64,000 nucleotides of DNA from contig ML978129.1 in the NCBI GenBank assembly GCA_010015805.1, positions 1,302,001 through 1,366,000 on the forward strand, in the 5' to 3' direction. A program made the translations under genes and the position numbers. The notes beneath the pieces were generated by a model. It was not told where the DNA came from. It saw nothing but the letters and a program-made list of their open reading frames with translations, and ran no database searches. The stretch's first letter is position 1; every line of letters starts with the position of its first letter. This document shows, piece by piece, positions 1,601-62,953 of the stretch. This DNA comes from Rhizodiscina lignyota. Lineage: Eukaryota > Ascomycota > Dothideomycetes > Aulographales > Rhizodiscinaceae.

Positions 1601-4600
1601 ATGGGGAAGATCCACAAAACCGCGACGGCGCGACATGAGGTGTCTTTGGTGAGTCTAGTTCTCTAGAAGTTAACCTGCAATATAATTCTAACGTGTGCTC
1701 GTTTCCCAGTCACCGGCGATATCAGAATTCATTTCGAAGGCCACATCGATCCCTCTACACCAGCTACCTGCACATCTCTCGTCCTTTCCGCGGCTATGGC
1801 CGTTTCCTAGAGGCGACCTCTACCACTGGATTCCGGTGCTGAATCGCTTCGACAACATCTACGAGCTCTTCAATAAAGAATACGGATTGACTGATGGTCC
1901 TCAGACACAGCCGTTCGCGTGTCGGTTGCTTGAGAAGGGCGATGGCGAATCTCCGGATGATATCTCTGCCGAGACACTCGCGTCGCTGAAGCTTTCTGCG
2001 GAGGGTGATCGAGAACTGATCGAGCAGATTCTGATCTTCACCAAGCTGTTATTAGATTGTTGCGGCAATCGAAGCCTGTACGCCAGCAGTGGGCAAATAA
2101 ATCACCTGCTCAACACCACTTCTCTCTCACTCCTCCGAACGACCCTCCTTCTCTCCCTTCGCCTTGCGCAGAGATACTACTCTTCGAGAAGCCGAACTCC
2201 AGCCGCCGCACAGAACAGTCAAAATCTCTTGAACAGCCATTATGCTATCAACCTCGATCGCATGCAACGCATCGCGGCACCGTTCGCAAGAAATGCACTC
2301 GTTGTCTCATCGCCCGCATCGCCATCGTTCAAGGGGAAGGAAAAGGCTACTGGCCGCGTTCGACGATCATCACAATTGCAGGCAGCTGATCTCGTGACCC
2401 TTGTCAAAGGCGAAGGCATGGACGATACAGACTGGAATGAATGGAGGTCAATTTCACTGTCATACTACAACGAGCCAGCTGCTGCAGACAATGCGCCACG
2501 CTCCGGCATTTCTGATGGTTCTGGGAGCCCTACAACCCCGACCACGCCTGCTCCGGCTAGGCGACCCTCCAATCTTGGCCCCAATGCTGCTTCCCGAGGA
2601 CCGCGTCCTGCAGCGGCTGAGGAATCCCCGAGCGTTCGATCAACTACAGACTCTGCTCGTAACAGCAATCAGAAACACGTCGAGATCTCTGTCGAGGATG
2701 TCATACATACACCATCGTATGAGTTGCTTAGGCCTCGTTTGCCGGACCTTCCGCGTAATGCTCAATACGAGCTTCTACACAAGGTCCGTGTCGCGAAAGG
2801 GCTGGGCACTGATGCTGCTGCTCGAGAAGATATTGTGGCAATTAGGCTTCTCGGTCTGGCGAACTTGGCATATGTTTTAACTGAGAGCAACTTCCAAACG
2901 AAAATTGCACAACCAGACTCTGAAGAGCCGCGACGCCTACAGCTGCCTTACCAGCTCACCGAACTCATCCACCCGCCTGGTGATGGTGCATGCGGAGTTT
3001 CCCTCTCTCTACAGACTCTAGCGCTGGAGACATTAGAGGCATTGACCAAGACGCGATCGAAAGCCAGCGATGTCAGCCTAGCAATGAGCGTCAACGTCAA
3101 TCACGGTGTGCTCTTTTATCTTCTACGGAAGGCCGTGGCTCAGCTCGCAGAGGAGGAGACAGAAGTCGATTTCGAAGAAGAGGAATGGCGTGAGCAACTG
3201 TTTGCCCTTATCAATAGTCTGCCTAGCTCGCAGCAAACGCATCGTACGGGTGAGCAGATGGTATCTGCTGGTTTGCTTGGAATTCTCGTGGATGTTCTCA
3301 CCCTTCGAACATCAAAGGCTGAGCGAAACCACGCAAAGGTTCTCATGTTCCTCGATACATTCGTCTACAATCTGCGGGACGCCTTTGGTGCTCTAGTCAA
3401 CGCCAAAGGCCTTGACATCATTGCAGATCTATGCGATTACGAAGTCAACAGTTCATTTGAGCATGCGAAAAGCGGCAAATCAATGCCTTCAGAGTTCAAG
3501 ACGCAAATGACGGACTATCAAATACCATATTTTCAGCAGCAGACGTTGCGCTGGATCTTCAAGTTCATCAACCACATGATGTCGCACAACATTGGCACTC
3601 ATGATCGAGTTCTCCGCAACTTGATTGATTCGCCGCAACTGCTGAACGGCCTGCGAACTGTCTTGAGCAATGCGAGGGTCTTTGGAGCTGTTGTCTGGAG
3701 TGGTGCAGCAAACATTTTGAGCAGCTTTATCCACAACGAGCCAACAAGCTACGCGGTCATCGCTGAAGCAGGATTAAGTAAGGCGCTGTTAGAAGCTGTT
3801 ACGCAGTCAGAAATCCCGGATGTGGAAGCTTCATCGCAACCAACAGACTCGGACGGCGCTGTTCGATCGGATGATGCTCTCACGTCGGATACTAGTCAAC
3901 CTGAGGAACCAGCAGAGACGAGCTTTGCGCCTTCATCAAACTTCTTTGAGTCTATCGCAGCAATGACAATACCCTCAGGACCACTGGCGACTGGCATCTT
4001 ACCCCATGACGAAGCTCTACCCGCTATTCCTCAAGCATTTGGTGCCATTTGCTTAAACGAGAAGGGCATGAGGCTGTTCCAGAAGTCTGGAGCGCTGGAA
4101 AAATTCTTCGACATCTTTGTTAGCCCGGAGCACGTTAAAGTCCTTGATCAAGAAGGAGATCTTCCTACTGCGCTTGGTAATTCCTTTGACGAGCTCGTGC
4201 GGCACCATCCACCATTGAGAGACGCAATCCTGCAATGCGTCTTGAAAATGATCCCTCGTGTTTGCCGTCTATGTTCGCAGAGGGCCGAGATGGATGGTGC
4301 AGGTGCGAAACTTTGGAAGATGGGCAAAGATGGCGAGCTTCTAGTTGCCGGCGGACGAGCAGCTCTTGTTGGCGACCAGGCCCGGGCTACCACTGGTGGC
4401 GAAGATGTTGAAATGTCCGGTATGGAAGGGGATACTCACGCAGCATCTTCCAAGCATGACGGCGAAGTCTCTTTCAATGACATCGTTGATTCAGAAGATC
4501 CAAAGAAGACGATAGCACCGACTCAGTTCATCAGTGTTGCGTGTCGCTTCCTGCGCGGATTCTTTAGCAATACCTCGCTTTGCTCAGCTTTCATCGAGAA

Positions 4601-7600
4601 GGGCGGCTTGGAGTACGCTATCGACTTTGCGACGCTACCTTGTCTTCCTTACAATCTCCATGACCATTTTAGTTTCAGTGAGGAGCTCAGTGGCGTCCTG
4701 GGGATGCTAGTTGAGCAGAAGCCCTATCTAGCATTACCGGCCATCATCTCTCGCATTCAAGCTGCAACTGATGAGCTTCGCCCGCTTCTTGGGCACAACG
4801 ATGAATCTTCTTTCTTCTCTATCTTCACAGATCCATCACAAGCGGAAAAACTAGCTAACCCAAGTGGTGAGCTGCGATCAGTGGTAGACCGCGGCACATC
4901 CTACGTGAAGGCACTCGTCATCCTCCATACTCTGTGTCCTGCACTTGCCGGAGCATTCCAGACACAGCTCTACAATCACCGTCAGACCTCAAATCTCTTC
5001 ACGCAGGTCAATCTTACCGATGCTTACGTTAAGCTCATTGATCGCTTGGGCCAGCTTCAACGGAGTTGCGTTTGGGAGGAGATTCTGTTGCAGAAACATA
5101 TGCCTGAAAAATGGGAGCTCTCTACTCGAATTACGAGTCTAGGTGTGGGCTCAGATGAAGCCGACAATGTGCTTCACATCAATCACACGGATGCCGAAGT
5201 CAATGGAACCAACACCTCCACGGCTCCGCCTTCGTCGCTGCAGCGTCAGTCCACCAATGGTTCTCTATCTTCCGATTCCGAGGAAAGATCTGCGCAGTTC
5301 CAAAATACTCGCGCCTTGCGTTATCTCCTCAGCCGCATTCCAACCGCAATCAATCCTTTTTTCCAGGCCCTGGGAAGAATTCTTCTCCTCCGAAGGGCAA
5401 GTGATCCATACTTGAAGCAGAATGCAATGAAGGTTGGCGACCAACTCGCGAAAGCGGCCATGGACCTGCTCAGGTTCGAAGCACCAAGGCGGACGCCGAA
5501 TGCGAAAGATCGATATGCCTACTGGATCATTACCTTGACTTCTGTGACTCAACTAATGATAGACGCCGAGTCCATGGAGCGCACATATCCTCAGACCCTC
5601 ACGCTCGTACTACAGGCATTTAAGAACCAGGGAGGCCTTGCGGCATTAGGCGACATTCTGGACACTTTCTTCGATGAAGTCAAGTCTATCGCGGCTACTC
5701 ATGGTGATGAAGAGCCCAAGAATGAAGTCGGGGGACTTTTCAATTTATCCCTTGGCGGCCTGAAGCTGATCCTTACCTTCTACTCTCGGATCATCAACGC
5801 TAAGTATGTCAATGAGGCACTCCAAACTACGGCATTATCTTCTCGAGCAGATAGGGACCGTGATAAACCGGACTTCTTCCTCCCAGGCCAGTTCCTTGTG
5901 GAGCTTCGTACGGCAGTGGTGCAACAAGTTCAGCGGTTGTGGAACTCAGAAGCTCTCGAGAAAGGCACAACGTCCATTGTCAAGACGCTCATTGAGATCT
6001 TAAGAGTGGTTCTCGATGGCGATTCAGAGACCAATGCCTACAAGCGTTCAGAGAAAATATCCAGACGTCATAAGGTGTCGGTTCGCAAGTGGAGCCCACG
6101 TTCTCCTGACGCCCTCGAGCGTCTGAGCGAGGATTTTGGAGACGCTGATCTCGCTCGAGAGGCCTTATTCCGTTGTTACGACAACAACGCTGCAGCACGC
6201 GACTATTGCGACGCCATGAAGAATCACCCTCTGGCTGAACGTAATCCCATCCCACCGGAAGAACTCCAACTGGCAGCAGCAGTTTCAGGGTCTGGCCGCT
6301 CTCCAAGCTCGCGTGATAGGAGCACCGGCGGCACACCAGGCGAGCGAAGACAAGACGTGGATGCGCTTCGAGCAGCTCTCATGCGACACCGTGAGCAGGC
6401 TGCGCACCGCGAGGAAGTCCAAGACACAGCCAACGGCGATGTAAACTCCGACCTGCCAGTTCTACCAAGTTTACCTCCTGAAGAGAGTTCTTCTCTTAGC
6501 GCGATCCTGGGCGCTGCTTTGGCCAGTGCTGGAGCAGCACCTGCTGAGAGTTCATCTGCAGTGGTAGAGCGACCTTCGGGTTCGGTGGAGACCAGCTCAG
6601 AGGAGACAAGCACGCCCGACGTTGTCACAGTTGATGATTTGAATGACGAGAGAACGACCTTGCGTAAGAATCTCATAGATCGGTCTCTCGACGTGCTCAA
6701 CGTTCACGAAGATGTCACGTTCGAACTCTCGGATCTCATTGCTGCAGCGACATCCAAAGCAACGGATCAGCAAAGCATGCGTGCAGAGATTGGATCAACA
6801 CTCGTTCAATCCCTCGTATCCTTGCAGATGGAGGAGGATTTCCGTCCACAAGGCAAGAAGATTGGTGCCTATGCCCATCTCCTTGCTCTTGTATTGAACA
6901 ACGACAAGCAAGACTTCTATTCTGCAACTCTAGATGAGCTTAAGGAGAGTCTTCCGATGCTTACCAGCTTCATCAAAGTTTTCCAAGACCAAAAGGCAGA
7001 AGAGCCCTCAAGCTGGATCGGACCGGTTCTACTAATCCTGGAGAAACTTCTCTCTAATGATGCTCAGCCTCAAGAGATCAAGTGGAAATGGCCAGAAGAG
7101 GGTGTAGCCGCGGATGACACGATGATAGAGGTTCCAGAGCCTGTTGTGGACTCTGATGAGAAGGAACATCTATTTGACGCAATTCTTTCGGTGTTACCAA
7201 GGATTGGCAAGGACGACGGTCTTGCGCTTTCAGCGTTAAGATCCCTCGTAATCCTCACTCGAAGCCGTCAGCTTGCGGTTCGCCTATCCGACAAGCTAAA
7301 CCTCTCAAAACTTTTCACTATGATGAAGCAAATAGCTGGTAAGACCAATGAGCGGATGCAAAGCGCTTTTATGCTTGTCCTTCGCCATATGGTTGAGGAT
7401 GACGAGACGATCCGCCAGATCATGCGAAGCGACGTTCAAGCGATGTTTGAGAGCCGAAGCGGTAGACAAATTGACACCTCCACGCTTCCGCGAAGCGCTT
7501 CTCATTTGATCCTTCGCAACCCCGAGATCTTCTTGGAAGTTGTCAACGAGAAGCTCATGATCCCTCATGCTTCCGAACAGCAGCGCTCAGGTAATCAGCA

Positions 7601-10600
7601 GAATGCACAACCCTTGCGCCTGAAGAAGGAGGATGCACAGCCAGACGACCAGCGTGGTACAACATTACCAGAGCCTGTAGGGGGCGATGAGGCTACCGGG
7701 CCCGATACCAAAGAAAACAATGCGGAACCCTCCAAGAACGGCGACAAGCCTCCACTATCTCGGATGAAGACAGCTGATCTAAAGCATCCAACTGTCGAGA
7801 ATCCAGATGGCGTCATCCACTTCCTCCTTTGCGAGCTGCTGGCATACAAGGAAGTCGAAGATATCGAGCATCCGAAATCGTCTCCAGAGACAGCGAAAGC
7901 TACTACCTCTGACGTGGAGATGGCGAATGGGGATGGTACCTCGTCCGACTCATCCTCGACAGCACCAGGAGCAGGCCCTTCTACCAAGAGCGACTTCAAA
8001 TCGGAAAATCACCCGATATACATCTACCGGTGCTTCATTCTCCAATGCTTGACCGAGTTGCTGTCCTCCTATAACCGCGCCAAGGTGGAGTTTATCAACT
8101 TCTCGAGGAAGTTGGCCCCGAAGGAGGCGACGCCGTCGAAGCCTCGATCGGGAGTGCTCAATTACCTCCTCAATTCTTTGATCTCTATTGGGACCCTCAA
8201 TCATGGAGAGGATACTGCTTTCCGGAAGACATACTGGACGTCACACAACGCCACCAATGTCATTGTTGCGCTAGTAACGAAGACTGGAGAACAAGTTTAC
8301 GACAAGTCTCGGGATGCCAAGGACTATGAAGATGAACCCGAACTTGTCTACGTTCGAAAATTCGTCCTCGAACATGCTCTGAAGTCCTTCAAAGATGCAC
8401 AATCGTCATCTGAGACTCTGGACCTCAAATACTCTCGCTTGCTGAGCCTTGGTAATTTATTCAACAGTATGTTGACGTCGAAACCTTCCCTTGGCAGCAC
8501 CAATAGCCACGAGATGGTTCTTCAATCCCAGAAACAGCTGGCGAGGATCATGTACGAGAAGAACTTCATCACCACTCTCACCAGCGCAATCGCGGACGTT
8601 GACCTCAACTTTCCCAATGCCAAGCGTGCCGTCAAGTACATTCTGAAGCCGCTCAAGCTCCTCACACAGACAGCGATTGAGATCAGCACCAACTCTGATA
8701 TTGCCCCGAGCTCTACAGAGGAGGATGAGATCTCCACAGAAGCTTCTTCGGTTTCTGACATGGATGGAGATGATCGTGAGCAGACTCCTGATCTCTTCCG
8801 CAACTCCACACTCGGCATCCTTCAGCCAAATCAAGACGAAGACTCTGATTCCGATGACGATGAGGATGACGACGATGAAGAGATGTATGAGGGTGATTAT
8901 GGTGAGGAGATGGACTACGAGGCCGATCACGACGACGAGGATGTCATTAGTGACGACGATGAAGAGATCGGGCCAATTGAAGGTCTGACTGGCGATGTTG
9001 GCATGGATGTTGAACTGGAGATTATGGGCGCAGATGACGCAGATGAACTCTCTGAAGACGATAGTGAGGATGATGATGACATTGAAGATGGCGAGATTCA
9101 TGGCACTGGTGATCTTGAAGCCATGGACGCCGAAGACGGCGAAGGTGATGGAGCTGAGGATGAATGGGGCACCGAAGAGGAGGATGGGGAAGAGTATCCC
9201 GGACAGAATGAGATTGAGGACGACGAAGGCCATGATCACATGAATGTCATTCACATCATGGACGATGAAGGCGCAGAGGGCTTGCTGCAGCGCTTGGAAG
9301 AGGATGGCCTGGGTGATTTGCCTCTGCCCATGGAGGGTGGAGGAGATTTTGTTGATGATGAGATACATGATGAAGAGGGTGAGTGACAGCCACGCTCTTG
9401 GGTGAAGATTCCGATACTCATATTTTCACAGATGACGACGAAGATGAAGAGGAGTATGACGAGGAGGACATTGTCTATGAGCCAGAATTCGAAGGTTTGA
9501 ATTTCGTACGATTTCGAGGAGGCACTATCGTATTAACTGGTGTTCCAGATGATGACGATGTTGGATTGGAGGGCATTGTATGGGAGCGCGAAGGCTGGGG
9601 CGGTCCGATCCGCCATGAACATGGTTTGCACCGCGCCCACGTTCATCATCACAGGCATCACCATGGCGGAAACAATCCATGGCACTTGTTCGAAACCGCC
9701 CATGGACGTGATGGCTATCCCTATCGAACACATCGTTCTGGTGCTCAGAATCGAAATAGTGACGACGGCATGAATCCCCTGCTTCGGCGCGACCCAGGCG
9801 GGCGTAGATCGGAATCTAGAAGTGATTGGATTGAGGAGATGCCGGGCTCTCGACCACGCTTTTTCCCCACTGGTGGCGATGGCGGCCCTGTCTCATTCAT
9901 CAGCAATCTAATCAACACCCTTGCAAATGGTGGGCCTGGTCTTCTTCCCCAACACCAAGGTGGTGGTGGTATCCAAATTTCTATTGGTGGAATGCATCTT
10001 ACTGGGCTACCTCCGGGTTTTCCTGCTCTCGACCGAACCTTCCCGTATCGCACTCGCAACACCGCCGAGCCACAGAACCGCACCGTTCGCGATGATCCAG
10101 CGTCAGTCGTTTCATTCAATGCCGCGCTCACGGGTGTCCGATGGCAGGAAGAGTCAAAGATCCTATTTGGTAATGAACCTTTGGCCAAGGCTCAGCGCAT
10201 CCAGCCTGCGGTCCTTCGCCTTCTTGTACCTCCAGCGCTCGAGGCTCAGAAGATTCGAGCTCAGAAGCAGAAGGAAGAAGAGGAAGCGCGCAAAGCCAAA
10301 GAGGAGGCGGAGAAGGCGGAGCGTGAAGCCAAGGATAAGCAGGAGCAAGAAGAGCGAGAAGCTCGTGAGAAAAAGGAGCGGGAAGAGCGTGAGGCTGCCG
10401 AAGCCGAAGAGGCCGCTCGACGCACTGTCGAACATCCTGGTGCAGAGACTGAGGCTTCTGAACCGACTGTAGAACAAGTGCAAGAGATGGAAGGTGTAGA
10501 GCAGACGCAAGCTGAGAGCACAGGGGAGGACGTGTCAGAACCCACGCCGCGGGTCGTTACCAATATCCGTGGTCGCGAAATTGACATCACCACTCTAGGT

Positions 10601-13600
10601 ATCGACCTCGACTATCTGGAGGCCTTACCAGAAGATCTACGTGAAGAGGTTTTGATGCAGCAAATTACGCAGCACCGCTCCGAAGCAGCGGATGCCCCTG
10701 TGCAGAATGAAGAAATAGAGATTGCTGAGGAGTTCCTTAACGCCCTGCCACCTGAGATGAGAGAGGAGATACTGCAGCAGGAAGCTCAAGACCGGCGCCG
10801 GCGCGAGCGAGAAGAAGCGCGTCGGCGTAATGCAGCAACTGGTACTGGACCACAGGCTGAAGAAATGGACGCTGCTAGCTTCATAGCTTCTCTTGACCCC
10901 CAGCTCCGCCAAGCTGTGCTCATGGATCAGGACGAAGATGTGCTCAACACACTCCCTGCGCATCTCGCTGCGGAAGCTCGTTCACTCGGTCGCGATCGCC
11001 GTCTCCAACAGTTACCTCATATGACCCGCCGACTTACACGTGCGGAACCGCTAGAGCAGGGCGATGACCACGCGAGAGAGAAGAAGAAGCCACGCCCAGT
11101 CATTCAAATGCTCGACAAGGCTGGCGTTGCTACTCTACTGCGCCTCATGTTCGTGCCGCAACAAGGTACCTCTCGACAAACGCTGAATGGCATCTTGCAC
11201 GATGTTTGCGAAAACCGTCAGAATCGTGCGGAAGTTGTCAGCCTGCTGCTTTCCATTCTCCAGGATGGTAGCAACGACGTTAGCGCAGTTGAACGTAGCT
11301 TTGCCCATCTCTCTATTCGTGCAAAGTCAGCTCCTACGAACCCAAAAACTCCACAGCCACTTAAGCGAACGCTTTCGGGACCTATGCCTCCTGCCAATAG
11401 CGACATGTCACCGATGATGGTTGTCCAACAGTGCCTCAATACCCTGGTCTTCCTCACTCAACATAGCAGCCACATTCCGTGGTTCTTCCTTACCGAGCAC
11501 GAGACCGCGACAGGATTTAAGTCGCGCTCTGCGAAGAAGGGAAAGATGAAGGAGAGCAAGGCAAGCAGGTATCCGCTCAACGCTCTGCTAGGACTATTGG
11601 ATCGCAAGCTTGTCATTGAAAGCTCAATGGTTATGGAGCAGCTCGCGTCTTTGTTGCAGAGCATTACGCACCCACTCAACATTCTTCTGCGCAAAGATAA
11701 GGACAAGTCCAAGCCCGACGAAGAGGAGAACAAACCAGATGAGGAGGAGCCTGCCCAGCAATCAAACGAGAACGAGTCCGCTCCTGCCGCTGATCTAACT
11801 GCTTCTGTGGTTATGACCGACATCGATGCACCGGAGCAAAGCGTAACAAGTGACGCAGCTCGTGCTACTTCAACAGAGACGTCTGAACAACCAGCAACGC
11901 CAGGCCCAGCTACGGGCGAAGCTTCTGTGTCTACTTCTGAACCTGCAAAGGATACTACTGTGGACGGAACCGAGGCCGAAAAGAGGAAAACTCGTACACT
12001 TGTACCACCAGAGGTTCCCGAGCATAATCTGCGACTCATTGTCAACATCTTGACTGCTCGGGAATGCAGCGCCAAGACCTTTAAGGACACCATCACGTTG
12101 ATTACGAACCTGTCCGCAATTCCTGGTGCCAAGGAGACGTTTGGCAAAGAGCTCATCAAGCAAGCTCAAGAGCTGGGCAAGGAAATCCTCGCTGACTTGG
12201 ACGAACTCATTGCACAAGTCACAACTGCCAAGAGCGGTACAGACGTTCAGGGTATGGCACTTGCGAAATTTTCTCCTGCGAGCTCGGATCAAGCCAAGCT
12301 CCTTCGCGTCCTCACAGCTCTGGATTATCTGTTCGACCCAAAGCGTGCCGAAGAGAACAAGCCATGGGCTTCTGACATCGAAGGCCTGCCCACCGAGCAG
12401 AAGGAGGATATCTTGACTACCCTCTACGAGAATTCCACTTTCGGGCCCCTGTGGACGAAGCTTAGCGAGTGTCTCACAGCAATCCGCGACCGAGGCAACA
12501 TGCTCAACGTGGCCACCATCCTCCTACCTCTGATTGAAGTCCTCATGGTTGTATGCAAGAACACAACACTCAAGGATGCTCCTTTGGCTCTCACCAAGAC
12601 GACCTCTAAGGACATCGCATTGGCTAGCCCCGCACCAGAGTCGCGTATGGAGAACCTATTCTTCTCCTTCACTGAGGACCATCGTAAGATCCTCAATGAT
12701 CTTGTTCGAAACAACCCCAAGCTCATGAGTGGCTCGTTCGCTCTGCTCGTCAAGAACTCCAAAGTCTTGGAATTTGACAATAAGCGGAACTACTTCAACC
12801 GAAAGGTCCATGCTCGTGGCCCAACAGAAATTCGACAGCCGCATGCGCCTCTCCAGCTGTCTGTTCGTCGCGACTTTGTGTTCTTGGATTCCTTCAAGTC
12901 ACTCTACTTCAAGAGCCCCGACGAGATGAAATACGGCAAGCTCAGCATCCGCTTCCATGGTGAGGAGGGTGTCGATGCAGGAGGTGTCACACGGGAGTGG
13001 TTCCAAGTGCTCGCGAAGCAGATGTTCAACGCAGACTATGCTCTCTTCAACCAAGTTGCTTCCGATCGCACGACCTTCCACCCGAATCCGACGAGCGAGA
13101 TCAATCCTGAGCATCTCATGTTCTTCCGCTTCATCGGGCGCATCATTGGCAAGGCGCTCTACGAAGGCCGCGTTCTCGACTGCCACTTCAGCCGTGCTGT
13201 GTATAGGCGAATGCTCGGTAAACCAGTGAGCATCAAGGACATGGAGAGTATCGATCCTCAGTACTACAATACTCTCGTGTGGATGCTTGAGAACGACATC
13301 ACTGATGCGATTTTCGAAACCTTCTCTATTGAGCGCGACGACTTTGGCGCCAAGACAATCATCGACCTCGTCGAAAATGGACGCAACATTCCAGTCACCG
13401 AGGAGAACAAGCAAGACTACGTCCGACTGGTTGCCGAGTGGAAGATGATTGGATCAGTCAGCGAGCAACTTGAGTACTTCTTGCAGGGTTTCCATGACAT
13501 CGTCCCTGCCGACCTCATCGCAATCTTCAACGAGCAGGAGCTTGAATTGCTCATTTCTGGCCTTCCTGATATCGACGTCGATGACTGGAAGAACAACACT

Positions 13601-13985
13601 GACTATCAGAATTACACTGCAGCTGCTCCACAGATCCAGTGGTTCTGGCGTGCAGTGCGATCGTTTGACAAGGAAGAGCGTGCAAAGCTTCTCCAATTCG
13701 TGACGGGTACTAGCAAGGTGCCACTCAACGGTTTCAAGGAGCTTGAAGGCATGAATGGCTTCAGCAGGTTCAATATTCACCGCGACTATGGCAGCAAGGA
13801 TCGTCTGCCGAGCAGCCATACTTGCTTCAATCGTAAGTTTACCCTGCCAAACGCAACGTCGTCAACATTTAACTGACAACTACTACACAGAGCTCGACTT
13901 GCCCGAATATGAGAGCTACGACAGCCTCCGCTCCCACGTTCTCACAGCCATCACGGCTGGAAGCGAATACTTTGGCTTTGCATAA
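1601..13985 (+). CDS. tom1: Giant HECT-type E3 ubiquitin ligase, TOM1/HUWE1 family
   Basis: Exons 1601-1648, 1710-9378, 9432-13832 and 13891-13985 give a protein of about 4070 aa, the usual size of fungal Tom1. The short first exon supplies the conserved start MGKIHKTATARHEVSLSPAI; all junctions are GT..AG and in phase. In order there are N-terminal armadillo-like DUF908/DUF913 regions (about residues 90-900), a long disordered middle, a very acidic Asp/Glu tract (about 2390-2560), a charged coiled coil (about 2850-2900), and a DUF4414-type segment near 2950-3040 with repeated LPEDLREEVL and LPPEMREEIL. The C-terminal HECT domain runs from about 3720 to 4070. The catalytic Cys is in SSHTCFNQLDLP (about residue 4037), a motif rebuilt only when the last intron is removed. 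Tom1 ubiquitinates excess histones and ribosomal proteins and acts in mRNA export and stress responses, mainly in the nucleus (family knowledge). Confidence 0.96.
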
Positions 13986-53324: not shown

Positions 53325-54420
53325 TCATACATCCTTTCTTAGTCCAGCGCCGGCCCACAATACAGGAGCAAGATGCTTGGGCAGATTGAAGCCAAAAAGG
53401 CTTGCGAACCAAAGGATTGTGAGGATTATTACAGGGGAGAGGAGGAGCTCTGTATGGTGGAGGAAGGGAAGGGCTGCAGTGCGTCAGTGGGATGAACTCC
53501 ACGAAGTGGAAAAGGAAAGGGAAAGCTGAGTCGAAACGTACCGTTATAACCAAGGAATGTGATGACGCTGTAGTAGCCAAAGGCGAGCAGGTACAGCGAG
53601 TTGCCGAAGAAGATGGAGACGAAGTAATTCTTCGCGATGATGGGCATGAGGAGGAATTGGATGACGTAGAGGAAGACCCATACAGGAAAGAAGGCGCGGA
53701 TTGATACCTGTAGCATTTTCTGTCAGCATAATCTTCCCGCGTCACTCGTCCAAATATTTGCTTTATGTTCGGCTCACATCGAAGCAGTATCCAAACTCCA
53801 ACTGCTCTCCCTCTCCCGGCTGTACAAACAGTCCCTGCCGTCTTCTTCCCGGTAGTCCAGGGACACCGGGCCCAAGTAGCCGCCCTACCAGGAAGTATGC
53901 GAGCGTTGAGACAAGTAACGATAGCCCGATGAAGTGTACGAATATGAAGACAAGAGTTATCCGTAGTACGCGCGAGAAGCCGTCAGCGTACGCCAGACCC
54001 CAGGCGATGGAGGTGAGTAGCAGGAAGAACGAGAGAAGATATGTGAAGGAAGGATCGGGTCGGTGCCATGTATTCTTCGTTTCTGTGTACAACTTATATC
54101 AGTATGACAGTGTCGACCGACATAAAGTTGGTGGATGATTCTGGCATGGACATACGTTTCTATGGTACGTCAATAATTCGTTCTGTCAAAGTCACAGAGG
54201 GGATACAAACATGGTAGTATATTGATCTGAAGACCTTCTTTGGCGCTATTATTAGGCTCGTCATCTCCCATATAGCCATCTCGAAGTCCATTTGTGGGAA
54301 CTTGAAGAGCCGCTTGAAGAAACGCGGCATGCGGAGGCCTTCGTTACGGTTGCTAGGGAGAGTACCCCCAAAATTCGAGGAGCTGCCATGCTGGCGAGGC
54401 ATGGATATGTGTGGATTCAT
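53325..54420 (-). CDS. unc50: UNC-50/GMH1 family membrane protein, with a 4-nt exon
   Basis: Minus-strand exons 54420-54211, 54159-54156, 54082-53778, 53707-53542 and 53473-53325 give 277 aa. The order of conserved blocks is that of UNC-50: PQMDFEMAIWEMTSLIIAPK, VFRSIYYHKQTKNTWHRPDP, five or six membrane helices, GYCFDVSIRAFFPVWVFLYV, FGNSLYLLAFGYYSVITFLG, and YNALPFLHHTELLLSPVIIL. Only the 4-nt second exon (AAAC) brings YYH and TKNTW together as YYHKQTKNTW in frame; direct joining shifts the frame. Family members are Golgi or ER membrane proteins: yeast Gmh1 binds an Arf-GEF, and worm UNC-50 is needed for receptor trafficking. Length matches the family. It shares a promoter with RNA14, which is divergent. 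Confidence 0.95.
54156..54159 (-). other. unc50: 4-nt microexon of UNC-50
   Basis: On the minus strand the order is AG at 54161-54160, exon AAAC, then donor GTATGT from 54155. The flanking introns are 51 bp (54210-54160) and 73 bp (54155-54083). With its neighbours it gives His, AAA (Lys) and C+AA (Gln), then ACG (Thr), matching the HKQTKNTW stretch typical of the family. It is one of the shortest exons that can be inferred from protein conservation alone. Confidence 0.85.
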
Positions 54421-54948: not shown

Positions 54949-57900
54949 ATGGCGGAAACTAACCCAGAGGAGGCATTTCTTCAATCTTTGGGTCAGGGAA
55001 CTGACAATTATGCGGTCAACTCACAGCAGAACGAGGCCGAAGCCGCCGAGTCTGACGAAGACTATGATCCCTCAAACCTTATCACCGACACCACCACCTA
55101 CGACCCACAGACAGCCCCTTCGATCATATCTCCTGTAGTTGAGCAGTCATCGCAGGTGCCATCACGCACGGAGTCGCGAGTGTCAAACACCAAGCCTCTG
55201 CCCGCGCCTGCCCCCAAGCAGCCGCGCATGAGGGGAGGATTTGCGGTCGACGATAGCAGCGATGAAGAGGGGACTCCAGTGACGAGACCAGCAACTACTG
55301 GGTCAAATGGGCATATGAATGTAGCGCAGGCGGCTTCTCAGCCCGCACAGCAACAAACATCTTCTCTTCCGCAAAACTCTGACAATGCTTCTACCACTCC
55401 TCTGCCAGATGTAACAATAAATAACGCTGCACAAGATCAGGGTGTCACAGGTGTTATTTCTCCAACTTCTGCCTCTCTTCAAGTTCCTGCGCCTCCTCCC
55501 GCTGCTGCTGTTCCTTCTATTGACACTGGTGTTAACGCACCAATTGCCAAACCCTCCCAACCTCTTCCATCTCCATCACAAGCAAATGGACCTGCTGCAA
55601 CCCCGACGTCGGCAGTGGCTACTGTGCTGGTAAAAGCACGCCTGCCTAATGACAGGGTCGGCATCCTGGAAGATAGGATCGCTGAGGATCCTCGAGGGGA
55701 CATGGAAGCATGGCTGGAGCTCATCAGCGAGCACAGGAAGCGCAACAAGCTATCTGAAGCTCGTGCTGTCTACGATCGGTTCTTCGAAGTTTTCCCGCAT
55801 GCTGTAAGTGAATTCGAAATGATATTTTTCTGGAACTTACGACGAGACAGGCAGAGCAATGGGTCGCATACGCTAAGATGGAGTCCGATGCCGATGCCTT
55901 CTATCAGCTGGAGCAAATTTTCCAACGCTCCCTTATGAGTGTGCCTCACGTGAAACTATGGTCTACATATCTTGATTATGTTCGTCGCCGCAACAATCTC
56001 ACTACTGACACGTCTGGCAATGCCCGACAAATCGTCTCTCAAGCATTTGAGTTTGTCCTTCAAAATGTCGGCATAGATAGAGACTCTGGTCACATATGGC
56101 AAGATTACATCGACTTCATCAAGTCAGGGCCTGGCACAGTCGGAGGCACAAGTTGGCAGGATCAGCAAAAGATGGACCAGCTGCGCAAGGCGTATCAGCG
56201 AGCTGTAGTGGTTCCGACGCACGCAACGAATACGATTTGGAACGAATACAGCAAGTTTGAGATGGACCTGAACAAGAATACGGTGAGTAGTCTTGGTGAA
56301 CCCTTTGAACGCTTGTGCTGACTACACTCAAGGGTCGCAAATTCTTGCAGGAGAAGTCACCAGCCTTTGTCACCGCGAGGAGCTCGGCAGTCGCAATGGC
56401 AAACTTTACGCGAGAGCTCCAGAGGACAACACTCCCGAAACTGCCCCCAGCGCATGGCTTTGATGGCGACGTCGAATACATGCGACAAGTGGAACTCTGG
56501 AAGCACTGGATCAACTGGGAGAAAGACGACCCTCTCGTTATTAGGGAAGAGGACCCTGCGGCCTACAAGAACCGCCTCGTTTACGTATACAAACACGCCC
56601 TCATGGCTTTGCGCTTCTGGCCGGAGATTTGGTTTGACGCAGCAGAATTTTGTTTCGAGAACGACATCAAGGACGCGAGCGGCAAAGAGCAAAGCAAGGT
56701 CTTTCTTGAGCAGGGCGTTACGGCGAATCCAGAGAGTTTGCTCCTTGCTTTTAAGCAAGCTGACAGCGTCGAGATTGCAATGGCAAATGAAAGTGGTGAC
56801 GGCGCACTCAAGAGACGAGGTGATGCCGTTCGTGAGGTGTACAACAAAGCACTCGATGCTCTGTACGGCCTCGTGAAAAAGACGGATGCACGCAAATCAC
56901 AGGCAATAGCACGAGCCAAGGAGCAGGCGGAGTGGGAGGCAGAAGATGCACCCGAAGTAATGCAGGTAGAAGATGACGATGAGTATCAACCCAATGGCGA
57001 CGCATCGAAGAAGAAAGAGGAAGCTCTCCAAAGGCAGATCGATGCAATCCAGAAGGGAGCTAAGGCCGAGACTGATCTTCTCAAGAAGTTGATCACTTCT
57101 GCATGGGTCGGACTAATGCGTGCTATGCGTCGCATCCAAGGCAAGGGCAAGATTGGTGAAGACATCGGCGGCTCTCGTCAAGTCTTTGCGGATGCCAGAA
57201 AACGAGGCTGGATTACTAGCGAAGTGTATGTGGCAAGTGCTCTCATGGAATACCATTCATACAAGGACCCGGCCGCGACAAGGATCCTAGAGAAAGGCGT
57301 GCGGCTTTATCCTGAAGACGAATACTTTGCCCTCGAATATCTCAAACATCTCATCGCCATCAACGACGTCACGAGTAAGTCATCCCCAACTAATCTTGCT
57401 TGCTTCTTCATTTCTAATATGTACTACAGACGCTCGCGCAGTGTTCGAAACAACAGTCAGCCGCCTCGCTTCCAAGCCTGAAACTCTCGACAAGGCCAAA
57501 CCTCTCTACGCATACTTCCACGAATACGAATCCCAGTATGGCGAGCTCAGCCAAGTGATCAAACTGGAAAAGAGAATGGCCGACCTCTGGCCCTCAGAGC
57601 CCCAAATCCAGCTCTTTGCGCATCGCTTCTCTGCCCCTTCCTTCGATCCAACCTCTGCGCGTCCCATCATTTCCCCCGCAACTCAAGCCAAACCGAAGGC
57701 TTTCGCTATGCCGAGCATCGAAACTACAAAGCCTGCCTCCATCACCAATTCTCCCCGTCAAGCGCTAGCACACTTCGCCGCCACCAGCTCTCCCAAGCGC
57801 CCATTCCCGCACGATGAGAGCGACAATGAGATGCAAAGGCCGCGGAAATTCGCGCGTGAGGAAAGCCCGCTGAAAGGCGCGGCGGGACGCAGGCTTGATG

Positions 57901-59550: not shown

Positions 59551-62500
59551 ATGGCTGGTGCTTCTCAGAAGCGCGCCAAGGATGAGGCGAAGAAGAAGTC
59601 GTCTTCCGGCAGCTCTGGTCGTGGTGAGGAGCGCTCCTCCACTCATACCACTGGCAAACACGGTGATTCGACTCCCAATCGTGCCTCTGCTCCTCGCTCT
59701 ACGCCTTCTGGCTCCAATCAGCGCTCCACTCCTCATTCTCTTGGTGCTCGTTACGATGGCAACCGTGACCCTGAGGGCATCAGCTTCACTGGCCCATCCG
59801 GAGGCGAGCGTGATCCGAGTGCCTCTAAGCCGTCGGTTATGCCGCGTGACATTGATATGGGTGTGATGATGTGGGCTGGTGCGCATCAGGTATGTCGCTT
59901 TTCTTTCTTCTCATCTTGATCCTGTCTTTGCACAATTGAACTTTGCAAATGTTTCTGCGAATGGCTTGCACCTGCTTTCGCGTTTCATGATTTATATTTT
60001 GCCCTCAACCAATATCTAGCATGTATGACTTGAGCCTACGTGTCTGCTTTCATCACTTGCAAGCCGATTGCGGCGATGAACGCACTCCATAGTCATCGCC
60101 GCCTGAACTTCATTCCGACATTTGTTTGATCACAGACATTCCATCTATCTTCTTCTATCACTCTGTGTCGTGACCCCATTGAATCATGGAGCTTTTGATA
60201 CTCTTGCTATGTTATTTCGACATCATCACTGACTCTGGACAGCGCGAGAATCCGCAAGGCTTGCCTCGTCGCCCAGCGCAGTTGAACAAGCAAGGCCAAG
60301 AAGTTACCGTCGGCCTCAATTCTTTCAAGGTGACCAAGTTCGGCAGCAAGCCCGTCTATCAGTACGATGTCATGATGCGTGGCAACGACATTGAGAAGCG
60401 CATCGTCATCAAGAAGGTATGGGGCTCCAACGCGGTTACCTCTCGCCTTGGCCAAGGCTGGATCTTCGATGGCAACAAGTTGGCTTGGTAAGTATTCAAT
60501 GCCCTCACTGATAGCCTCCAATTTTCCTGACTTGTTTTAGGTCCTTGAAGAAAGAGGCTCAGGAAGTTCGTATCGATGTCGACTTGGACGCCGAGCGTGC
60601 TGAGCGCGATCCCAGCAAGCCATCGAACGACAAGAACAAGTACAATGTCGCGCTGCGCTACACGAATGCAGTCAAGTTCGAGGTGCTCACCGCATTCTTG
60701 AACGGCAAGACGGATTGGAACAACTCCTGCCTGGAAGCAATCAACTTCTTCGACCACCTCATGCGTCAAACACCTAGCAGCAAGTTCTTCCAGCTTAAGC
60801 GTTCCTTCTTTGCTCAGGGCAATGATCGTCTCAAGCTTGGCGGTGCTGTTGAGGCCTTTAAGGGTGTCTATGCGTCGCTCCGTATCGCATACTATGGTCC
60901 TGGTCTTGGAGCCGGTCTCGCAGTAAATGTTGATGTCGCCAATGGCACCTTCTGGGAGCAATTGCCGCTTGTGCAAGTCATGGGAGCCCTCACGAACTGT
61001 CCTGGAACCGATGCCTTGGCTCGTAACTTCGCAAACTCCACCAAGGATTGGAGGAAGTCGGCTATGTACACGCAGCTCAAGCGTCTTCGCCATGTCCGCG
61101 TCTTCTCGACCCATCGCGGCGTCAATGACGAGTACTGCATTGAGACTATCTTGGGCAAGGATGTCAAGACCTTCGAGTTCAAGCAGAACGAAGGCAGGCC
61201 AGAGGAGAAGACGGTGTCTCTTCAGGACTACTATCGCGGTGCATACAAGATTAATCCGCAACCTGGCCTGCCCATTGTCGAGATGACCAAGAAGGTTGGG
61301 CCCCCAGGAAAGAAGAAGAGTGTGGTCCTCCCGGTCGATGTTCTCCGGATCTTACCAAACCAGCGTTACGCATTCAAGCTGGATGAGAAGCAGACCTCCT
61401 CTATGATCAAATTCGCTGTTTCTCTTCCCCAGGATCGTTGGAAGGGCATCCAGACAGGTGTCAACATGCTTGACAGGAACAAAGATCCTTATCTCCAGAA
61501 TTATGGACTCGAGATCGGCGCTCAGCGCACCGAAGTCAAGGCTCGTGTGCTTCCAACCCCGGACGTCACATTTGCCAATGGCAGCATTCCCGGCACCCAG
61601 GCTGGACAAGGCCGCTGGCGCATCGATGGCAAGAAGTTCGCCACTCCCAATTCCAAGCCAATCAAGGCTTGGGGTGTGTGCGTTATCCAGGATCCTCGTG
61701 AGGCTCCGGACCAGCAGGCTACCGCGGCCTTCTTCAAGCAGTTCGTGAGCATCTACAAGGCCCATGGTGGCCAGTTCGCGAATGAATCCCCAGTCATCCA
61801 GCCCGGACAGTTGAACAAGGGCGGTGAAATGATCACTGACATCTGGAATGCCACCGGTAACAAGAACCAGGCCCGTCCCGAGATTCTCTTCTTCGTCTTG
61901 CCAAAGAAGGATTCCAATGTCTACAAGAATATCAAGAAGAGCTGCGAAGTTCGCTACGGTGTGGTCTCTCAGTGCCTGCAGGCCCGCCATGTCAAGACGA
62001 ACCAGGCCCAGTACATCTCAAATGTCTGCATGAAAGTCAACGCGAAGCTTGGAGGTTCGACTTGCCGTGCTACTAGCAAAGTCATGGCCAAGATTGCTCC
62101 CAACCACGCGAAGATTCCCACCATGGCCATCGGCATCGACGTCTCTCACGCCGCCCCTGGAAGCGACCAAGGTTCCATGGCTGCAATCACGATGTCTCTG
62201 AACGCTGACTTGACTCGTTACGCTGCGCACTGCAACACCAACGGTCACCGTGTGGAGCTGGTGACAAAGACCAACATCCTCGACCTGGAAAACTACGTGA
62301 AGCACTGGGTCTCCACGACTGGCAAAGGCGCCTTGCCTTCTCGCGTCGTCTATTTCCGCGATGGTGTTTCTGAAGGCCAGTATCAGCAGGTCATTACTCA
62401 AGAGGTTGCGGACTTGAAGGAGCTGTTCCACAATATCGACCCCAAGAAGCAGGTTCAATTCACCGTTCTGATCGGCTCAAAGCGTCACCACGTCCGCTTC

Positions 62501-62953
62501 TTCCCCCTTGGCAACGGTGGTGACCGCAACGGCAACCCCAAGCCAGGCACTCTCGTCGAGACCGGTGTCACTCATCCATATGAGTTTGACTTCTACTTGT
62601 GTTCTCATGCGGCCATCAAGGGTACCGCTCGTCCCATGCACTACTATTGCTTGCTGAACGAGGCCGGTATGTCTCCTGAGGAGATCCAGCAGATGCTGTA
62701 TGAGCACTGCTACCAGTATGCTCGTGCGACCACGCCTGTTTCGCAGTTCCCCGCGATCTACTACGCGCATCTGGCATCCAACCGTGCAGTCGCTCATGAG
62801 AACCGCCCGGCTGTCTCTAGCGGCAAGAAGGAAGCTGGAGTCAAGCATGGTCAGACTGCGTCCTCTTCGTCTGACAAGACTCCAACAGAGATTCCGCCCC
62901 TCATGGCACTCAACAACCAGATGGGTATCCGCCTTGCGATGTGGTATATCTAA
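59551..62953 (+). CDS. Argonaute protein with complete slicer site
   Basis: Exons 59551-59889, 60243-60487 and 60541-62953 give 998 aa. The first 110 residues are Ser/Gly/Arg-rich and disordered. The domains follow in the usual order: N domain (from about 115, RENPQGLPRRPAQLNKQGQE), linker 1, PAZ (about 335-460, including TFEFKQNEGRP and VLPVDVLRILPNQRYAFKLD), linker 2, MID (about 575-700, with RPEILFFVLP and YGVVSQCLQ), and PIWI (about 715-998). The catalytic tetrad appears whole: Asp in GIDVSH (about 728), Glu in HRVELV (about 767), Asp in FRDGVSEGQ (about 802), His in YYAHLAS (about 938). Spacing agrees with slicing Argonautes such as human AGO2. It should therefore cleave RNA guided by small RNAs (QDE-2-like quelling or SMS-2-like functions); which of the two fungal clades it belongs to I cannot tell. 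The first intron is 353 bp. Confidence 0.97.

Follow-up and report, generated by a model that had tools for sequence, protein, structure and literature searches.

The window, that is, the whole stretch of 64,000 nucleotides analysed here, carries on its minus strand a gene for UNC-50, a conserved membrane protein (54420-53325), with five coding exons, the second of which would consist of the four bases AAAC (Table 1). With these four bases included, the full product comprises 277 amino acids and matches the UNC-50 family (PF05216) in a Pfam profile search with 292.2 bits at a cut-off of 22.1. The match begins at residue 34 and extends over positions 1-218 of the 221 of the profile, which places the product in this family, above the gathering cut-off across most of the profile. 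Solved structures matching the product were sought at E values of up to 1, and none was found.

Table 1. Predicted coding exons and introns of the UNC-50 gene, and a competing acceptor, in window coordinates
Feature	Coordinates	Strand	Remarks
Coding exon 1	54211..54420	-	ATG at 54420; ends ...TAC TAC CAT (YYH)
Intron 1	54160..54210	-	51 nt; GTTTGT...CCATAG
Microexon AAAC	54156..54159	-	4 nt; Lys codon AAA and first base of Gln codon CAA
Intron 2	54083..54155	-	73 nt; GTATGT...ACACAG; phase 1 in Gln codon
Coding exon 3	53778..54082	-	AA/TKNTWHRPDPSF...GYCFD; starts AA ACG AAG at 54082
Intron 3	53708..53777	-	70 nt; GTGAGC...CTACAG; branch-like CTGAC
Coding exon 4	53542..53707	-	
Intron 4	53474..53541	-	68 nt; GTACGT...CTGCAG; branch-like CTGAC
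Coding exon 5 and stop	53325..53473	-	
Competing acceptor	54093..54094	-	AG/TTG (G of AG at 54093; exon start 54092); in-frame YYHLYTETKNTW with the intron 1 donor

Several other genes lie in the window, all on the plus strand. The divergent neighbour of UNC-50 (54949-57476) matches the Suf family (PF05843), the Rna14-type family of mRNA 3′-end processing; it is made up of two open reading frames, and at least one intron is needed to join them. An Argonaute gene with PAZ, Mid, and Piwi domains is found at 60515-62950. Two very long open frames, one of 2564 and one of 1497 codons, occupy 1692-13873; the 2564-codon frame, the one of the two that was scanned, contains DUF908 and DUF913, domains of Tom1/HUWE1-type ubiquitin ligases.

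Reading frame and family fit of the UNC-50 product

According to the original prediction, the frames on either side of the 54211/54082 junction clash, the bases AAAC at 54159-54156, placed between a proper AG and a GTATGT donor, resolve this clash, and the resulting HKQTKNTW is the sequence expected for the family. These claims are borne out, and the coordinates and intron lengths given with them are correct. Direct joining of 54211 to 54082 leads to a stop at codon 112; inclusion of AAAC restores the frame and yields YYHKQTKNTW. Retention of intron 1 or of intron 2 results in a stop at codon 87 or 92, respectively. With AG and GT borders and an intron on each side (AG/AAAC/GTATGT), the four bases have the structure of a microexon, defined here as an internal exon no longer than 30 nt. 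As to the expectation for the family, all 20 residues were scored against PF05216 at both positions encoded with the help of AAAC, using a 115-residue piece of the product. Lysine is the best of the 20 at the first position (153.1 bits, followed by arginine with 151.7) and glutamine at the second (153.1 bits, followed by lysine with 151.2 and glutamic acid with 151.1), so that both are top-scoring at their columns. The drop from the best residue amounts to 1.4-5.6 bits at the first and 1.9-4.9 bits at the second position, and the double change to NG gives 146.9 bits. This shows that K and Q agree with a family preference, not with strict invariance.

A point absent from the original prediction is that in-frame readings lacking AAAC exist as well, for example by use of the acceptor AG at 54093, which leads to YYHLYTETKNTW (hereafter marked by its residues LYTE). 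Such readings are compatible with the frame; they lose the KQ of the family and are made less likely by the family fit and by the splice signals. Competing models were enumerated by two scans. The single-intron scan (donor GT, GC, or AT in 54260-54091, acceptor AG in 54225-54001, intron of at least 40 nt) returned 24 open models, 8 of them with GT donors, which were scored with Pfam, and the other 16 with GC or AT. The two-intron scan, carried out within 54245-54051 for GT-AG introns with a minimum length of 35 nt, yielded 8 open models, three of which combine AAAC with the acceptor at 54083, and in only one of these three is YYH joined directly to KQTK. A crude search for introns by coding potential produced 22 candidates of mixed quality (0 with stricter thresholds), which were excluded from scoring.

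Among the resulting 16 open GT-AG models (8 single-intron and 8 two-intron), the proposed AAAC model obtains the highest PF05216 score. Fourteen of the 16 were scored on an N-terminal piece and two at full length only. On the N-terminal piece the proposed model reaches 153.1 bits and the other 13 range from 103.2 to 142.6. The runner-up (142.6 bits) itself includes AAAC; it uses a donor at 54195, adds the residues VCIPS, and has an intron of 36 nt. The best model devoid of AAAC, the LYTE model, follows with 140.3 bits, and the remaining 11 lie between 103.2 and 135.9. At full length, scores of 292.2 (proposed), 278.8 (LYTE), 276.1 (54195-54093), and 269.1 bits (54210-54075) were obtained; a bare deletion of KQ, which served as a control and is not a splice model, scored 277.3 bits. 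The in-frame readings without AAAC are still far above the Pfam cut-off.

The presence of competing donors and acceptors would also suit a reading in which AAAC is real but alternatively spliced, with a putative full form, a skipped form (stop at codon 112), and a LYTE form coexisting and inclusion of the exon tuning the amount of UNC-50. The early stops caused by skipping or retention would fit control by decay. This reading overlaps with the best explanation, an obligatory exon, and is regarded as unlikely.

Splice signals and chance expectation

Each of the four introns contains a match to the branch site consensus YTRAY, the distance from its A to the 3′ end being 11, 17, 16, and 11 nt for introns 1-4; these are consensus matches and hence candidates. 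In intron 1 the candidate is TTGAC at 54173-54169, a second TTGAC being located at 27 nt; in intron 2 it is CTGAT at 54102-54098. As a background, 444 of the window's 8,611 AGs, counted on both strands, have a YTRAY at 10-18 nt. The signals of intron 1 are modest and weaker, with GTTTGT as the donor and TTGAC rather than CTGAC or CTAAC as the branch motif.

These distances bear on a competitor of the AAAC exon, namely a single intron of 118 nt (54210-54093) that ends at the AG before TTG and leaves AAAC without any part in an exon. Such an intron obeys the GT-AG rule, keeps the frame without a stop, requires no tiny exon, and, as described above, gives the best AAAC-less score on the N-terminal piece as well as 278.8 bits at full length. 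However, it scores 13.4 bits worse than the proposed model at full length and 12.8 bits worse on the piece, forfeits the top-scoring K and Q while adding two residues, and is longer than introns 3 and 4. Moreover, the only YTRAY in intron 2 has its candidate branch A at a distance of 7 nt from this AG, as compared with 11-17 nt in the four proposed introns. We therefore consider it very improbable that AAAC never serves as an exon.

The chance of encountering a suitable tiny exon was estimated by dinucleotide shuffling of the 128-nt interval (200,000 rounds), in which the six bases at its start and the three at its end were kept in place and introns had to measure at least 40 nt. Any open, frame-restoring exon of 1-13 nt was found in 34,542 shuffles (17%), for which reason repair of the frame alone constitutes weak evidence. 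A 4-nt exon between AG and GT that encodes KQ (HKQT) occurred in 157 of the 200,000 shuffles, and one that encodes K/R-Q in 361; KQ together with a GTNNGT donor was seen in 11 and with GTATGT in 1. The same objection does not apply to frame repair that brings in KQ next to a strong donor. In the window, AGAAACGTATGT is found once on both strands taken together, and AGAARCGT three times.

The same combination speaks against an error of assembly or a decaying gene, that is, one intron of 128 nt accompanied by a small indel, or a pseudogene. That the direct join is out of frame would be accounted for in this way, but an error of one base cannot supply the two missing residues, whereas the AG...GTATGT site encodes precisely this K and Q, and the gene is otherwise open, has normal introns, and scores 292.2 bits, so that this explanation is hardly credible.

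The RNA folding predicted for the 128 nt does not stand out from that of shuffled sequences (z -1.32, with 20 of 200 shuffles as good). A hairpin is predicted on the minus strand at 54140-54175, with AG/AAAC in the loop and the GTATGT donor of intron 2 paired with the part of intron 1 that holds its candidate branch site. Of 2,000 shuffles, 81 fold as well or better, so that the hairpin is probably due to chance, and it was set aside as evidence since it had been examined only after being noticed. When introns 1-4 were compared with the window by BLAST, matches of 10-14 nt only were obtained besides the introns themselves, which gives no hint of introner-like repeats in the 64 kb of the window.

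Probable removal of the two introns and their possible origin

From these features, AAAC at 54159-54156 is very probably a genuine and obligatory 4-base exon of a fungal UNC-50 gene. The splice dinucleotides, the frame, the fit to the family, and the loss of the frame upon skipping or retention are demonstrable in the DNA itself, and we infer that both flanking introns are removed in the cell. These would be two ordinary short introns of the U2 type (51 and 73 nt), the removal of both giving ...IYYH-K-Q-TKNTW.... Recognition across the intron is usual for short fungal introns, and each of the two would likewise be recognised in this manner (intron definition). They would presumably be excised one after the other, because factors bound on either side of an exon of four bases would collide. 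Either order of removal would leave the signals of the other intron intact. Exon bases preceding a donor are usually contacted by U1, and the last three of these before GTATGT (AAC) would be supplied by the microexon itself; conversely, CCATAG would remain in place if intron 2 were removed first.

The original prediction had regarded ordered or recursive splicing as implied. Intron definition with removal of one intron after the other is plausible, yet "implied" is too strong a word, because human MPC1 shows that exon definition can serve a 4-bp exon (PMC9929638), and the strict recursive form, in which AG is joined directly to GT, is absent. Nor do the two introns make up a stwintron, in which an internal intron splits a splice element of the external one: although they nearly abut and stwintrons are known in filamentous ascomycetes, the frame is lost when all 128 nt are excised and the four bases between AG and GT leave no zero-base ratchet point, which renders recursive splicing or a stwintron with no base retained exceedingly unlikely.

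Searches with the UNC-50 protein returned no relatives in viral contigs and none in bacterial and archaeal genomes. Degenerate DNA patterns for the stretches TKNxW, WARDDPxF, and TFLGY identified 17 loci (2 in genome contigs and 5, 1, and 9 in viral contigs), only one of which, L001, encodes a relative of UNC-50 as judged by tblastn (2e-22). L001 lies on a 69.5-kb contig (JAIYDP010000498.1) that is binned as Verrucomicrobiaceae in a metagenome-assembled genome. Since the UNC-50 gene is broken into frames there, it is most likely an intron-bearing eukaryotic contaminant of a bacterial bin. In a family search with PF05216 of 387 genomes of the same phylum as the genome carrying L001 (G001), 4 matches were detected; G001 alone passes the cut-off of 22.1 bits, and the other three reach 20.1-20.9 bits. 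Among 14 control genomes, Methanosarcina acetivorans gave a match below the cut-off.

At L001 (4767-5146), UNC-50 can be modelled with two introns of 36 and 35 nt, both unusually short, and an exon of 26 nt between them. Allowing for GT-AG introns of at least 25 nt, 18 models are open. An intron at 4921-4955 is part of four of these and splits the Gln codon after C, at the same place and in the same phase (phase 1) as intron 2 of the window. HKQTK appears in three of the 18, all with the Gln-codon intron, and the other 15 lack this motif. Pfam scores cover 4 of the 18 models: NPKKVYKNTALHKQTKNQWARDDPAF, whose first intron measures 36 nt, obtains 121.4 bits (121.8 with one residue more), two further models with HKQTK obtain 112.7 and 103.0 bits, and a single-intron model without HKQTK obtains 90.2 bits. 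The best model reads HKQTKNQW, has 15 of 26 residues in common with the window product, and is without an intron at the position of window intron 1. Its support is partly circular, and not independent, because the model was picked for its fit; with two introns in each of the two genes within these 26 codons, the shared position could also be a chance coincidence.

As the distant UNC-50 of L001 apparently has the Gln-codon intron at the same place, this intron may be the older one. A later gain of intron 1 four bases upstream might then have cut off the microexon, a suggestion prompted by one relative. The fuller proposition is that, in a filamentous ascomycete, intron gain four bases upstream of an old and widely shared Gln-codon intron gave a conserved gene an exon that is obligatory, frame-breaking, and four bases long; it is put forward tentatively and is open to considerable doubt. 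If it were true, the locus would represent a natural test of the minimum spacing of two introns under intron definition, and many fungal gene models could conceivably hide such exons.

Tiny exons in other lineages

Exons of one base, of codon size, and of four bases are already in print, and the UNC-50 case is a further example that changes no principle. Exons of 4 bp have been reported in human MPC1 (exon 2) and TNNI1, with MPC1 as the case studied (PMC9929638). The MPC1 exon resembles that of UNC-50 in being a constitutive, frame-breaking internal exon of four bases, and it differs in its long flanking introns, its distant branch points, and its recognition by exon definition, reportedly from positions 67 nt upstream and 6 nt downstream of it (PMC9929638). 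In UNC-50, by contrast, the introns of 51 and 73 nt have their candidate branch sites close to the 3′ end, at 11 and 17 nt, and the exon is predicted from the sequence.

In plants, microexons of 1 nt have been described in APC11 and VPS55, and most small microexons are stated to be unannotated (PMC8831610). It is therefore plausible that automated gene finders would miss the AAAC exon as well. The plant cases have in common with UNC-50 that tiny exons missed by annotation alter the predicted protein; they are, according to the same excerpt, supported by RNA-seq and RT-PCR and kept across land plants, whereas UNC-50 is one fungal locus (PMC8831610).

Among the fungi, codon-sized microexons in a filamentous ascomycete have been reported for NACHT-ankyrin genes of Tuber melanosporum (PMC3689799, PMC4986451). 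As far as the excerpts go, these are multiple and alternatively spliced for diversification, in contrast to the single, frame-breaking, and apparently obligatory exon of UNC-50. The original paper on the Tuber microexons is said to be Iotti 2012. In Trichoderma virens, likewise a filamentous ascomycete, the transcription factor gene Xlr2 contains a microexon that, unlike AAAC, acts as a regulated switch; according to the abstract, functional microexons had not been described earlier in filamentous fungi (PMC11121469). Exons down to 6 bp are reported from P450 genes of Phanerochaete (PMC1184071), and in the excerpts of PMC8022950 and PMC3990503 microexons appear only as an aligner setting. Among the matches listed from open-licence PubMed Central, no paper deals with a microexon in a fungal UNC-50 gene.

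If the AAAC exon is confirmed, a filamentous fungus joins the lineages with obligatory exons of four bases or fewer, and two short introns may evidently sit four bases apart without loss of the gene. It also serves as a warning that a tiny exon may be concealed wherever a gene model breaks a conserved motif at an intron. Long-read alignment is reported, in an excerpt on Ganoderma, to be weak for very short exons (PMC11590231). For the AAAC model, the predicted spliced sequence at the junctions is CATAAACAAACGAAG, and CATAAACAAACG is incompatible with use of the acceptor at 54093; conversely, the predicted sequences CATTTGTACACAGAAACG, which results from that acceptor, and CATAAACGAAG are at odds with the AAAC exon.
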